From Geminicoccaceae bacterium (GTDB lineage: Bacteria > Pseudomonadota > Alphaproteobacteria > Geminicoccales > Geminicoccaceae): a stretch of 32,354 nt of DNA. The notes beneath the pieces are model-generated. The model had not been told where the DNA came from. It did no database searches and saw nothing but the letters and a program-made list of their open reading frames with translations. The DNA lies in NCBI GenBank assembly GCA_025054575.1, contig JANWZN010000021.1, positions 1-32,354 of the forward strand, written 5' to 3'. The number at the start of each line of letters is the position of its first letter. The stretch's first letter is position 1. This document shows positions 8,151-14,641 of this stretch, one piece after another. Position numbers and translations under genes: made by a program.

Positions 8151-8930
8151 GGACACTCTTCTAGCCGCCCCGCCCGGACGGGCAAGCCGCGGGAGGACAG
8201 CGCCCGCGCCCCGCGGTTCTTCGTCACCGGTGCGCTCGGGCCCGGGGCGCGGGTCGTGCTCGATCGGGCGCGCGCCCATCAGCTCGCGCACGTCCTGCGG
8301 CTGCGCCCGGGCAGTCCGGTCCGCCTCTTCAACGCCGAATGCGGCGAGTGGCTGGGCACGCTCGGGCGCCTCGATCGCAGCACGGCCGAGGTCGAGATCG
8401 CGACGCTGTTGCGTCCGCCGGGCGAGGAGCCCGGACCGCGCCTGGCGCTCGCACCGATCCGCCCGAACCGACTGGACTGGATCGTGGAAAAGGCGGTCGA
8501 GCTCGGCGCCGCCGCGATCGACATCGTGCCGACCCGGCGCAGCGTCGTTCGCTTGGAGCGCAGCGAGCGGCTCGGCCTGATCGCGATCGAGGCGGCCGAG
8601 CAGTGCGGGCGGTTGAGCGTGCCCCCGATCGTCCTCCACCGCGATCTCGCGGGCTGGCTCGCGACGCTCGGCCCGGACACGCCGCTCGTCCTGGCCGACG
8701 AGACCGGCGGCGAGCCCGTATGCTCGGTGCTGCGCGAGCTGCCGGGGGCGGCGCTCCTGGTCGGGCCGGAAGGCGGCTTCGCGCCGGAGGAACGCACCCT
8801 GCTCCTGGCCCGGCCCGGCACGCGTCGCACGAGCCTCGGGCCGCGCATTCTGCGCAGCGAGACGGCCGCGATGTTCCTTCTTGTCTGCGAGCGGGTCGCT
8901 CGAGCGGAGGCACCCTCGGGCCCACCGTGA
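8139..8930 (+). CDS. rsmE: 16S rRNA m3U1498 methyltransferase
   Basis: RsmE methylates N3 of U1498 in 16S rRNA using S-adenosylmethionine. The N-terminal PUA-like domain begins PRFFVTGAL, and the SPOUT knot domain carries LLVGPEGGFAPEE and SLGPRILRSETAAMF, both diagnostic. No ATG, GTG or TTG lies in frame between 8142 and 8256, and the GTG at 8256 would remove the start of the PUA domain. I therefore choose TTG at 8139, which sits 9 bases after GAGGAGGAG (8121-8129). This gives 263 residues, slightly long because of about 25 weakly conserved N-terminal residues. The start overlaps the divergent ubiA start by 12 bases. A rare non-standard codon closer to the PUA domain is the alternative. Confidence 0.92.
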   Translation: MARHGHSSSRPARTGKPREDSARAPRFFVTGALGPGARVVLDRARAHQLAHVLRLRPGSPVRLFNAECGEWLGTLGRLDRSTAEVEIATLLRPPGEEPGPRLALAPIRPNRLDWIVEKAVELGAAAIDIVPTRRSVVRLERSERLGLIAIEAAEQCGRLSVPPIVLHRDLAGWLATLGPDTPLVLADETGGEPVCSVLRELPGAALLVGPEGGFAPEERTLLLARPGTRRTSLGPRILRSETAAMFLLVCERVARAEAPSGPP

Positions 8931-9051
8931 GGGTGGCGTCGAATGGCTTCGCCGCGCCTTCGGGGCCGGGCTCGGCGCCCGCGGATTCGGAAAGCGTTCC
9001 GCCGGCTCGGCGTCGCGCCGCTCCGAGATCCGGCACGAGCCCTCGAGGCGA

Positions 9052-11400
9052 TCAGGCCGAGGCGAGGAGGGGTTCGGTGGCGAACCGATCGGTGGCGCGC
9101 GTCGAGCCGCTCGTCGCGCTGGCTTCGAGCAAGCTCAGGACACGTTCGGGGGTGTCCGGAGCCCCGAGGAGAAATCCCTGCGCCTCGTCGCAGCCGACCG
9201 CGTCGAGCAGGCGCAGCTGCTCCGCCCGCTCGACCCCTTCGGCCACGATCGAGAGCTCGAGCGCGTGGCCGAGACGCACGATCGCGTCGACGATGGCGAG
9301 GCCCGCAGGGCCCTTGCCGAGCTCGCTCGTGAACCGACGGTCGATCTTGAGCTTATCGAGTGGAAAGCGCTGCAGATAGGCGAGAGCCGAATAACCGGTC
9401 CCGAAATCGTCGAGTGCGATCTTGATCCCGCGCCGCCGAAGACGCTCGAGTATTCCGACGGCCTGATCGAAATTGCGGATCAGGACATTTTCGGTGACCT
9501 CGAGCTCGAGAAGATCCGGGCGCAGTCCGGACTGATCGAGCGCGGCTTCGACCATGGCTTCGAGGCGGTCGACGATCGAAGGTGTCATCGAGAGATTGAC
9601 GGCCACGGGGCAAGCCAGACCGCGCTCGCTCCAGAAGCGGGCCTGACGGCAGGCGGTGCGGAGGACCCACTCGGTGAGTGGACCCACAAGGCCGCTTTCT
9701 TCGGCCACCGCCACGACATCAGCGGTCGAGACCCTTCGAGGGGCTCGGCCCTCGGGCCAGCGCAACAACGCTTCGCAGGCCGTCACCCGCCGGTCGGCGA
9801 GCCGCAGGATCGGCTGGAAGCGAAGCGCGAGGCCCCCGTGCTGGAGCGCGCTCTCGAGCGCGTTCGCCAGGCGGTGGCGGATCGCCTGGGCCGCGGCCAG
9901 CTCGGCCGAAAAGGGCAAAACACTGCCCCGGGCGGTGGCCTTGGCGCGGTAGAGGGCGATATCGGCGTGGCGCAGCAGCTCCTCGGCGCTGCGCCCGTGC
10001 TCGGGGGCGAGTGCGATGCCGATGCTCGCGCCGACGCGGATGCGCCCGTCGGTGGTGACGACAGGTTGGGCCAGGCTGTCGGCTAGGCGTCCCGCGAGTC
10101 GCTGGGCTTCTGCCGGACCCTCCGGATCCGGTTGGAGGACCGCGAACTCGTCACCTCCTAGGCGCGCGACCGTCGCCTGCGATCCCGCCGCACCGGCGAG
10201 CCTTCCGGCCACCGCGACGAGGAGCCGGTCGCCGGCCGGATGGCCGAGGCTGTCGTTGATTTCTTTGAAGCCGTCGAGGTCGAGGAGGTGAAGGGCGAGC
10301 CGACGTCCGGGTCTCGCGAGGGTCGCCGCGAGAAGGCGCGTGAAGCGGCTCCGGTTGGCGAGGCCGGTAAGGGGGTCGTGCTCGGCCAGGTGACGCAGCT
10401 GCTCTTCGGCCTCGCGGCGCTCCGTGACGTCGAGGGCGATGTGCACGGTCCGGGCGAGCGAACCATCCTCGCGCAGCACGCGCCTGGCGGTCGCGAGCAG
10501 GTGACGCCGGCTGCCGTCCGGGCAGTCGAGATCGACTTCTTGGAAGCCTCGCGCGTCGACCGGTGCAGTGCAGAGTGCCGCGGGCAGCCCTATCTCGATC
10601 GGGTCGCGGCCGAGCGCGGCGGACTCGGCGATGCCCGTGAGCTCGGCGGCATGGCGGTTGACGAGGAGGAGCCGGCCCCGCTCGTCGCGGGCGGTCACCG
10701 CGACCGGTAGGGCGTCGACCAACATGCGCAAGCTGTCCTCGGCCTCGCGAGCGGCGCTCGTTGCGTGCTCCGCCCGACGACGCGCGCTGCGCGCCTCCTG
10801 GACGGCACTTGCCACGAGCCCGGCCAGCAGCAATCCGCTGAGCCCGGTCAGACCGAGACTCCAAAGAATACCTTGCCGAAGACCGGCGGCGAGACGTCCC
10901 GAATCGGCCGCGGCTCGCAGAAACTGATCGTAGGTCCGGGCGACCAGTTCCGCGAGCGGCTGCCCGATCGCGTCGACTTTTTCCCGGATCGCCGCCAGCG
11001 CCGCTTCGTCACCCGGCTCGAGGGCCAGAAGGTCGGGCTCGGCCTCTGCCAGCCGTTGCTCGACCTCGAGCGCGAGACCGGCGAGAACCGGGTCGGCCAT
11101 GAGCCCGGCTCCGTCGCGCTCGCGGACCAGACGGCGGACCGCGAGAACGAGCACGTCGACCTGCTCGAGGAAGCCTTCCCGGTCCAGCCCGGCGCCTGCG
11201 GCGTACCGCTCGAGGAGCTTCGCGAAACGGAGGAGATGGGCTTCGGCTCGGCTCGCGAACCATCCCGAGTGCAGGCTCGCCTCGAGGTCGAGAAGGCGCT
11301 GCTCGCGCAAGCGGGCTCCGCCGGAGGCGAGCGCCGCCAGGAAACACAATGCAGCGAGCAACACCACGCCCAGACGGCGGCGATCCAAGGCCGTCTCCAC
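9052..11400 (-). CDS. Membrane PAS-GGDEF-EAL cyclic-di-GMP enzyme
   Basis: A 782-residue bifunctional cyclic-di-GMP protein. Membrane segments at about 10-26 and 178-200 enclose a periplasmic, mostly helical sensor region of about 150 residues. A PAS domain (about 223-330), a GGDEF domain (about 335-495) and an EAL domain (about 505-760) follow in the cytoplasm. The cyclase signature RLGGDEF (413-419) is intact, and INDSLGHPAGD is present. The RxxD inhibitory site expected at 406-409 is replaced by GSQA, so product feedback at that site is unlikely. The phosphodiesterase set known from EAL enzymes is complete: E543, N602, E634, D664, D665, K685, E721 and Q741. Both activities are therefore possible. 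The GTG at 11400 is 19 bases after the stop of the exported SUOX-fold protein; a TTG at 11388 is an alternative. The pair looks like a sensor-output unit. Confidence 0.92.
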   Translation of the reverse strand: METALDRRRLGVVLLAALCFLAALASGGARLREQRLLDLEASLHSGWFASRAEAHLLRFAKLLERYAAGAGLDREGFLEQVDVLVLAVRRLVRERDGAGLMADPVLAGLALEVEQRLAEAEPDLLALEPGDEAALAAIREKVDAIGQPLAELVARTYDQFLRAAADSGRLAAGLRQGILWSLGLTGLSGLLLAGLVASAVQEARSARRRAEHATSAAREAEDSLRMLVDALPVAVTARDERGRLLLVNRHAAELTGIAESAALGRDPIEIGLPAALCTAPVDARGFQEVDLDCPDGSRRHLLATARRVLREDGSLARTVHIALDVTERREAEEQLRHLAEHDPLTGLANRSRFTRLLAATLARPGRRLALHLLDLDGFKEINDSLGHPAGDRLLVAVAGRLAGAAGSQATVARLGGDEFAVLQPDPEGPAEAQRLAGRLADSLAQPVVTTDGRIRVGASIGIALAPEHGRSAEELLRHADIALYRAKATARGSVLPFSAELAAAQAIRHRLANALESALQHGGLALRFQPILRLADRRVTACEALLRWPEGRAPRRVSTADVVAVAEESGLVGPLTEWVLRTACRQARFWSERGLACPVAVNLSMTPSIVDRLEAMVEAALDQSGLRPDLLELEVTENVLIRNFDQAVGILERLRRRGIKIALDDFGTGYSALAYLQRFPLDKLKIDRRFTSELGKGPAGLAIVDAIVRLGHALELSIVAEGVERAEQLRLLDAVGCDEAQGFLLGAPDTPERVLSLLEASATSGSTRATDRFATEPLLASA

Positions 11401-11419
11401 TCCGTGCGGGACTCGGCGA

Positions 11420-11920
11420 TCAGCGAACGACGATCGAGCGCAGCTGCCACACGGCCCGCCCGCGATAGGGCTGCTCGACCGTCTCGGGATGCGTGCGCCA
11501 GGGGTAGACGAGCCACAGCGGGCCGCGCTCGCGGACCGGCATCGGTCGACCGTCCCTCCGGGTCGCGAGCAGGAGCGGGAAACGCTCCAGGTCCGCGATC
11601 GGAATGACCGCGCGGTAACCGTCGAGCGCCGCCGCCACGAGTTCGCTTCCGTGCGCCTCGACCATGCGGAGGAGGGCTCTCGGATCCACCCCGGAGAAAC
11701 GTTGCTCGCCCTCCGTCCAGGGGGTGGTGGTGACGAGCTCGCGCAATCCCAGCGCTTCGAGCATCGCGAGGTCGAAGACCGCTTTGCCGGGAGCGTTCGT
11801 CCGACCGATGGCGCCGGAGATCTCGAGTATCGGTCGACCGGTCGGCGCCGGTAGTTCACCCGCTGCCGGTTGTGCGGCATGTACGATCAATGCCGATAGG
11901 AGAGCGAAGAGGAAACGCAT
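11420..11920 (-). CDS. Exported SUOX-fold (molybdopterin-binding-like) protein
   Basis: A 166-residue protein with a signal peptide (MRFLFALLSALIVHAA, cleavage probably near residue 20), so it should act in the periplasm. The rest (LEISGAIGRTN..., FDLAMLEALGL, FSGVDPRALL, GYRAVIPIADLERFPLLLA, RGPLWLVYPW) resembles the small sulfite-oxidase-fold, oxidoreductase molybdopterin-binding domain. Full enzymes use a cysteine as molybdenum ligand. This protein has no cysteine at all, so catalysis of that kind is unlikely and a binding or sensing role is more plausible. The family match is from memory of its pattern and is moderate. It lies directly upstream of the GGDEF-EAL gene and is divergent from the oxidase cluster. 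An in-frame ATG at 11938 is an alternative start. Confidence 0.7.
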   Translation of the reverse strand: MRFLFALLSALIVHAAQPAAGELPAPTGRPILEISGAIGRTNAPGKAVFDLAMLEALGLRELVTTTPWTEGEQRFSGVDPRALLRMVEAHGSELVAAALDGYRAVIPIADLERFPLLLATRRDGRPMPVRERGPLWLVYPWRTHPETVEQPYRGRAVWQLRSIVVR

Positions 11921-12028
11921 GGCCTCTACCCCGAGCATACCTGCCGCGTACCCTTCGCCACCTGTTACCCCCCGGCCCTGAAAAAACAGTAAACAGGCCC
12001 GCCATGCCCGGCGGCGCGGCGCTAAACT

Positions 12029-12057
12029 CATATTCGAAAACGCTGTTTTTGCGACAA
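12029..12057 (-). promoter_or_regulatory. Possible promoter for the SUOX-fold/GGDEF-EAL pair
   Basis: On the minus strand TTGTCG (12057-12052), a 17-base spacer and AATATG (12034-12029) form a weak sigma-70-like promoter pointing to the SUOX-fold gene. It would leave a leader of about 100 bases. The -35 half overlaps the GCGAC/GTCAC dyad at 12051-12065, a position where a regulator could act. Confidence 0.3.
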
Positions 12058-12065
12058 TCTGTCAC
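12051..12065. promoter_or_regulatory. Dyad GCGAC-N5-GTCAC between divergent operons, RegA/PrrA-like
   Basis: GCGAC AATCT GTCAC (12051-12065) is a near-palindrome in an AT-richer patch between the SUOX-fold gene and ctaC. It resembles the GCGNC-Nx-GNCGC pattern described for the redox response regulators RegA/PrrA, which control oxidase genes in Rhodobacter, with one mismatch in the right arm. Assignment is inference. The wider gap 11921-12176 also holds a CCTGTT (11961-11966)/AACAGG (11992-11997) inverted repeat; no convincing plus-strand -35/-10 pair for ctaC was found. Confidence 0.25.
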
Positions 12066-12176
12066 GCGCGATGGCACGGCGCGCCCCGTATCCTCCTCCT
12101 CGCCGGTGCCGCGTCGAGTCGGCTCCGTGACCGTCCGGGGGCCCTCCGCGCCGCCCAGCAGGGGATCCGAGACCGC

Positions 12177-13010
12177 ATGACCGCGAGGCTTACACCCATG
12201 ACGGCCGCGCTCGCGGCCTTCCTTTTCGGCGGCCCGGCTTTGGCCGCCGGGCCGACGCCCTGGCAGCTCGGCCTCCAGCCGGCGGCGACGCCGATCATGG
12301 AGCGCATCGCGAGCTTCCACGGGCTGCTGCTCGGTATCATCGTCTTCATCTGCCTCTTCGTGCTCGCCCTCCTGGTCTATGCCTGCTGGCGGTTCCGCGA
12401 GGACCGCAACCCCGTGCCCTCGCGGGTCTCGCACAACACCGCGCTCGAGGTGGTCTGGACGGCGGTGCCGGTCCTCATCCTCGTCATCATCGCGGTGCCT
12501 TCGTTCAAGCTCCTTTATTTCCAGGACGTGTTGCCGAAGACCGAGATGACGATCAAAGCCATCGGCAAGCAATGGCTTTGGAGCTACGAGTATCCGGACC
12601 ACGGCAATTTCACGTTCGACGCGCTGATGGTCGACGACAGCGAGCTTCGCCCGGATCAGCGCCGGCTTCTCGACACCGACAACCTCGTCGTCATCCCGGC
12701 GCGGACCTATGTGAAGGTGCAGGTGACCGCTTCGGACGTCCTGCACTCCTGGACGGTGCCGGCGTTCGGTGTGAAAATCGACGCGGTTCCGGGCCGGCTC
12801 AACGAGGTCTGGCTCTACGTCAACGAGCCGGGCACCTATTACGGTCAGTGCTCGGAACTGTGCGGCCTGCGGCACGGCTTCATGCCGATCGCCGTCAAGG
12901 TCGTGCCGCGCGAGGAGTTCGAGACTTGGGTCGCGGAAGCGCAACAGAAGTTCGCGCGCGCGGGCGAGCCGGTTCGGGTCGCGGCCGCGTCGCCCGTTGC
13001 CGGTCGCTGA
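12177..13010 (+). CDS. ctaC: Cytochrome c oxidase subunit II
   Basis: Subunit II (CoxB/CtaC) of an aa3-type oxidase accepts electrons from cytochrome c through its periplasmic CuA centre. The 277 residues comprise a signal peptide (cleavage near residue 24, PALAAG), two membrane helices at about 48-70 and 92-113, and the cupredoxin domain. The CuA ligands are all present: H190, C225, E227, C229, H233 and M236 (QCSELCGLRHGFM). The aromatic electron-entry patch is KQWLWSYEYP at 131-140. There is no C-terminal cytochrome c domain, so this is a plain aa3 subunit and not a caa3 one. It opens the oxidase cluster. ATG 12177 is taken as the start; ATG 12198 with GAGG upstream would also give a complete signal peptide. 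Confidence 0.97.
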   Translation: MTARLTPMTAALAAFLFGGPALAAGPTPWQLGLQPAATPIMERIASFHGLLLGIIVFICLFVLALLVYACWRFREDRNPVPSRVSHNTALEVVWTAVPVLILVIIAVPSFKLLYFQDVLPKTEMTIKAIGKQWLWSYEYPDHGNFTFDALMVDDSELRPDQRRLLDTDNLVVIPARTYVKVQVTASDVLHSWTVPAFGVKIDAVPGRLNEVWLYVNEPGTYYGQCSELCGLRHGFMPIAVKVVPREEFETWVAEAQQKFARAGEPVRVAAASPVAGR

Positions 13011-13024
13011 GCCGCGTTCGATAG

Positions 13025-14641
<1,617 letters not shown>

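Follow-up and report, generated by a model that had tools for sequence, protein, structure and literature searches.

Gene organization of the locus

The DNA studied here is a window of 32,354 nucleotides in a Geminicoccaceae bacterium (assembly GCA_025054575.1, contig JANWZN010000021.1). It contains two adjacent minus-strand genes, which we call pruR and dcpA for reasons given below (Table 1). The dcpA frame starts 19 nt after the pruR stop. On the other side lie plus-strand genes for subunit II (COX2, here coxB, starting at 12177) and subunit I (COX1, starting at 13046) of cytochrome c oxidase; 256 bp separate coxB from the pruR start. A preliminary description of the locus, made from the DNA sequence alone, had claimed a gene for a cysteine-free SUOX-fold protein followed 19 bases later by a second gene, the pair diverging from aa3 oxidase genes. 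The reading frames and the structural model described below agree with this arrangement.

Table 1. Features of the pruR-dcpA locus (positions in the window)
Feature	Position	Strand	Basis or remark
pruR, 166-aa cysteine-free SUOX-fold protein of the pterin-binding type, hydrophobic N-terminus	11420..11920	-	ORF (ATG at 11920, stop ending at 11420), Pfam, model, alignments
dcpA-type receptor, 782 aa: TM1, all-helical predicted periplasmic domain, TM2, PAS, GGDEF, EAL	9052..11400	-	Frame (GTG start at 11400, stop ending at 9052), Pfam, hydrophobicity, model, motifs
Receptor residues 1-210: TM1, predicted periplasmic helical domain, TM2	10771..11400	-	W47 kept; residue 55 is His, at position +8 of WX7E
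Divergent intergenic region between pruR (-) and coxB (+)	11921..12176	.	256 bp

A scan of 11300-12250 for sigma-70-like promoters and an Rfam scan of 8800-12400 gave no match. Three terminator-like matches were obtained (0.5 expected), one of them in the pruR/coxB intergenic region on the minus strand (12010-11994).

The known PruR-DcpA system

PruR-DcpA is a pterin-responsive c-di-GMP switch of Agrobacterium tumefaciens. According to the available sections of the review 'Emerging roles of pterins as signaling molecules in bacteria' (PMC13259868), it has been described genetically, biochemically and crystallographically in this species and surveyed across Proteobacteria. In A. tumefaciens, a tetrahydropterin produced by PruA is captured in the periplasm by PruR, and the resulting complex binds to the periplasmic portion of DcpA, which is thereby biased towards c-di-GMP breakdown. 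Pterins are given there as the known ligand class of PruR, with tetrahydromonapterin preferred. The number of unique PruR-linked pair sequences in Proteobacteria exceeds 5500, and the receptor encoded in such two-gene operons is either a GGDEF/EAL protein or a histidine kinase (PMC13259868).

Sequence, fold and pocket of PruR

The PruR of the window is close in length to the approximately 170 aa expected of PruRs; its N-terminus was judged hydrophobic by inspection, and none of its 166 residues is a cysteine. It barely reached the Pfam family Oxidored_molyb (24.5 bits, with a cut-off of 24). The PDB holds the PruR structures 7KOS, 7KOU, 7RKB, 7KP2 and 7KOM, and in a phmmer search of the PDB the top match was 'Pterin Binding Protein' 7RKB (E 1e-39), followed by 7KOS/7KOU (E 4e-39) and then the Vibrio PruRs 7KP2 and 7KOM, whereas sulfite dehydrogenases reached E 0.7 at best. 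The AlphaFold2 model (pLDDT 93) has a SUOX-type fold, as confirmed by Foldseek and VIA-align. It was closest to 7KOS, the A. fabrum PruR Atu3496 (Z 27.5, rmsd 0.9 Å over 146 residues, 46% identity). The same fold was seen in the Klebsiella pneumoniae PruR 7RKB, which was solved with neopterin (Z 26.9, 44% identity), and in the PruRs of Vibrio cholerae (7KP2, 33%) and V. vulnificus (7KOM, 31%). The listed molybdoenzymes were more distant (Z at most 16.0, rmsd above 2 Å): sulfite oxidase, sulfite dehydrogenase and MsrP (YedY) have the cofactor-domain fold in common with PruR, but they are larger and carry the molybdenum-ligand cysteine.

Tyr104 and Trp160, named as pterin-binding residues of A. 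tumefaciens PruR (PMC13259868), correspond to Y102 and W158 here, the numbering being shifted by 2. W158 was invariant across 29 aligned PruR sequences, an alignment that leaves out the partial PruR of locus L037, the second copy in L048 and the protein of L064. Asn102 of the A. tumefaciens protein is replaced by Asp (D100); a change of N102 is flagged in the review as possibly tied to pterin specificity. The column of the molybdenum-ligand cysteine, located by alignment with the Cys-bearing SUOX-family protein L064 from our survey, is occupied by Thr (T64). PruRs are said in the review to carry Trp in place of the enzyme cysteine, whereas the present alignment gives Thr, with the Trp of the conserved TPW four residues beyond it.

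The Pfam match at the cut-off, as well as plasmid records that label homologues as molybdopterin-dependent oxidoreductase, would suit a catalytic molybdenum oxidoreductase of the MsrP/YedY or sulfite dehydrogenase type, next to which the receptor is a bystander. We regard this as extremely improbable, given that PruR has no cysteine and Thr in the Cys column, that PruR structures are far closer than the enzymes, and that both genes are missing together in two relatives (see below). A catalytic role of PruR was thus rejected on the absence of cysteine and the PruR-like fold. The same observations bear out the earlier proposal that the missing molybdenum ligand points to binding and not to catalysis.

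The receptor and its periplasmic domain

Pfam assigned EAL (5e-61), GGDEF (4.5e-40) and PAS (5e-8) domains to the second protein, and its GGDEF and EAL-type motifs are complete. Two hydrophobic segments (approximately residues 10-28 and 182-200) enclose about 150 residues, which were modelled as all-helical (pLDDT 92.5) and could be aligned with the corresponding domain of the receptors adjoining other PruRs, the survey receptors serving as the comparison set. The second gene had been described beforehand as encoding a membrane protein with a periplasmic region and complete cyclase and phosphodiesterase motifs, in agreement with these findings. A fold search with the N-terminal model returned helical bundles at low significance; the best had E 0.04, and no match reached 0.001. 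Among them were the sensor domains 4K0D, NarQ, NarX and LytS-N.

The docking motif WX7E reads WX7H in the window receptor: W47 is present and Glu is replaced by His. The same WX7H was found in G003, G004 and G005, thus in all four genomes of the genus that hold the pair. In the review the Glu is conserved in 'the vast majority' of receptors, not in all (PMC13259868). Among 40 receptors encoded beside PruR (the window, 24 others from the first sample and 15 from the second) 33 had the W, and position +8 was occupied by E in 28, H in 7, D in 4 and Q in 1. Excluded from these counts were one masked-base receptor, L127, L133, L137 and L139, which have no DcpA-type neighbour (the frames given for L127 and L137 are possibly spurious), and those 3 of 22 additional class-sample matches that had no locus. 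In the second sample the receptor frame of L128, which is among the 15 counted, closes after 100 aa. Receptor alignment A3 omits L041, L042, L044, L049, L053 and L063. Since five of these receptors are without the W, its invariance in A3 is partly by choice; the counts from 40 receptors are unaffected. We treated WX7E as a common but not obligatory feature and the window receptor as a putative variant of the DcpA type. Across the survey table the co-occurrence of receptor His with PruR Asp was not strict.

Pairing of PruR homologues with receptors

PruR homologues were detected in 25 of 96 genomes, the host genome of the window included (E 1e-6), in 14 of 31 genomes of the family (E 1e-10) and in 32 of 190 genomes drawn from the class (E 1e-15). 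In the 96-genome search a same-strand DcpA-type receptor gene lay directly downstream of 25 of the 31 non-own homologues, one of these receptors having a masked start and one a split frame (L040). Fourteen of the receptors were of the GGDEF type and 11 of the histidine-kinase type, which are the two configurations given in the review (PMC13259868). The six homologues lacking an adjoining receptor were those of L043, the second copy in L048, L059, L060, L061 and L064; in L064 the enzyme cysteine is retained. The second sample comprised 22 new matches from the class, 19 of them with loci. Here 15 of the 19 homologues were followed by a DcpA-type N-terminus and 4 were not, as judged on the receptor N-terminus only, the output domains being mostly outside the stretch. 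Conserved adjacency in other genomes and a SUOX-like structure prediction had been named beforehand as tests of the proposed pair, and both were observed. In L133 the next same-strand frame after the PruR homologue opens with a different multi-TM region, not of the DcpA type.

When 24 receptors, including that of the window, were scanned with Pfam, GGDEF was found in 13, EAL in 11 and HisKA in 11; no single PAS model matched more than 9. The 11 kinases resemble the window receptor in being encoded after PruR and in having a periplasmic domain of the same type (PruR-DTB systems), but their output domain is a histidine kinase instead of GGDEF/EAL. The window receptor has a PAS domain before GGDEF, whereas the legend of Figure 5 of the review, by which the comparison was made, gives only GGDEF and PDE motifs for DcpA (PMC13259868). 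Since PAS also precedes GGDEF-EAL in L048 and L057, this arrangement is not peculiar to the window. The host draft genome (3.5 Mb) gave 18 GGDEF matches, so that adjacency of pruR to a GGDEF gene by chance should be rare.

Seven named loci with PruR were found. The three nearest, with best-segment identities of 82, 80 and 85%, come from metagenome-assembled genomes: two are Geminicoccaceae (KatS3mg117, HOT.CON.139) and one is an uncultured alphaproteobacterium.

Conservation of the cytochrome oxidase neighbourhood

In the window, G004, G005 and G011, the last of which belongs to another genus, pruR is divergent from coxB. In G007, from a third genus, a single gene separates the two; we take it to be a TldD-like frame. 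The RNA methyltransferase gene flanking the pair is presumably rsmE, and the order rsmE - dcpA - pruR - coxB is the same in G004 and G005 as in the window. The contig of G003 stops inside pruR, with the cox side out of view. In G001 and G002, which are of the same genus as the window, the rsmE and coxB neighbours are both intact and lie about 0.3 kb apart, with neither pruR nor dcpA between them. PruR was absent from the whole G001 and G002 genomes; dcpA was sought at the rsmE/coxB site only. The two genes appear to have been gained or lost together, and their joint absence between intact neighbours counts in favour of one unit.

The position beside the cox genes in three genera may reflect inheritance or function. 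If function, the pair could sense the respiratory or oxygen state via pterin oxidation and share its regulation with the oxidase genes that diverge from it. Such a role would accord with the recurrence of the position (adjoining coxB in four genomes, one gene off in G007) and with the redox activity of pterins (PMC13259868). We nevertheless consider it rather improbable, as the cox genes are kept without the pair in G001 and G002, simple inheritance can explain the shared position, and tblastn with coxB on the 30 loci L035-L064 gave just 3 matches (L035, L036 and L038), these loci mostly spanning only about 2 kb upstream of pruR (the G007 case came from a wider look).

Pterin supply in the host genome

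The best PruA-like gene of the genome is an SDR gene on another contig (L068 1468-2268, G000:C421). Its product scored above the cut-off for NCBIfam NF006597, a model with a generic SDR name; the second-best model was pteridine reductase NF006598 (189 bits, with a cut-off of 288). The protein contains the TGX3RXG motif (TGAAKRVG). At the position of YX3K it has YX3R (YTASR), as in all six genomes of the genus, G001 and G002 (which lack PruR) among them. Because of this difference we regard L068 as a PruA-like candidate only and do not assign it as PruA. GTP cyclohydrolase I was found. The draft genome, which is about 96% complete, yielded no FolB/FolX-type protein and no pterin-dependent aromatic hydroxylase; the absence of FolB/FolX could be due to draft incompleteness or to a different folate route.

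The YX3R in the reductase candidate, the Asp at position 102, which is possibly linked to specificity, and the His at +8 in all genus genomes with the pair (shared by 7 of the 40 receptors) raise the possibility that the input of this PruR-DcpA system is not that of A. tumefaciens: the pterin or its oxidation state could differ, or the polarity could be reversed. The +8 residue varies elsewhere too, the Asp does not strictly track the receptor His, and the pocket Tyr and Trp are unchanged, so that we hold such an altered input to be possible but on balance unlikely.

Identity of the pair and proposed mechanism

We identify the window pair as a PruR-DcpA system, with a probability of about 90 per cent, because PruR structures are its closest matches, the pocket Tyr and Trp are kept, the receptor is a W-bearing GGDEF-EAL protein with two TMs, and the adjacency is recurrent. 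The direct basis consists of the sequence, the predicted fold, the pocket residues, the gene order, the joint absence in two relatives and the catalytic motifs. Counted against this identity were the WX7H motif, the Asp in place of N102, the YX3R of the reductase candidate, the absence of FolB/FolX, the missing receptor in 6/31 and 4/19 cases, and the Thr where the review places Trp.

Compared with A. tumefaciens/fabrum PruR (Atu3496)-DcpA, as far as the review describes it, the gene order, the SUOX fold lacking the molybdenum-ligand cysteine and the pocket Tyr and Trp are alike, as are the periplasmic domain between two TMs and the complete GGDEF and EAL domains. PruR is 46% identical and differs by the Asp, while the receptor has WX7H and the neighbours are cox genes. 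The preliminary description took the pair for an undescribed signalling unit, a claim that does not stand in view of the published PruR-DcpA system (PMC13259868) and the PruR structures in the PDB. Its suggestion that a periplasmic ligand is linked to c-di-GMP is likely to be correct, by homology to this system. The pair is thus a new and largely ordinary example of a known switch, not a new kind of signalling.

By homology with A. tumefaciens, from which every step beyond the fold and gene order is drawn, the switch most likely works as follows. PruR, with the fold of the sulfite oxidase cofactor domain minus its molybdenum-ligand cysteine, would be exported, and its shortened pocket would hold a small pterin, probably in reduced form. 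The loaded protein would then dock on the periplasmic helical domain of the receptor. TM2 and the PAS linker would relay this event to the GGDEF and EAL domains and so tip c-di-GMP turnover towards synthesis or breakdown (in A. tumefaciens, breakdown is favoured). Export, the pterin ligand, docking and the direction of output are in this sense predictions for the window pair. Given the motif His and the pocket Asp, it is not certain that the ligand preference and polarity of the A. tumefaciens system apply here as well. A more far-reaching proposal is that in the Geminicoccaceae lineage a cox-adjacent switch has been retuned, as marked by WX7H, the pocket Asp and YX3R, and reports the respiratory or oxygen state via oxidation of an exported pterin, possibly with another pterin or polarity than in A. 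tumefaciens; we think this doubtful.

A literature search for Geminicoccaceae together with c-di-GMP found no paper. The present pair puts a pterin-to-c-di-GMP switch in this family, in which the three nearest named relatives are metagenome-assembled genomes. Natural variants of the docking motif and of the pocket, such as those described here, could help to find the residues that set ligand choice and polarity.

PruR homologues on plasmids

PruR homologues were also carried by 596 PLSDB plasmid records, 378 of which are typed as conjugative (E 1e-10). On one Klebsiella and one E. coli plasmid (L120 1967-5976, L121 2032-6129) the order HTH regulator - hypothetical protein - PruR - hybrid histidine kinase occurs near conjugation genes, and PruR is annotated only as a molybdopterin-dependent oxidoreductase. 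It is possible that this PruR-kinase block provides a pterin input to conjugation. On an Aminobacter plasmid (L119 2103-6901) a PruR-EAL pair adjoins genes for an acyl-homoserine-lactone synthase and an autoinducer-binding regulator.
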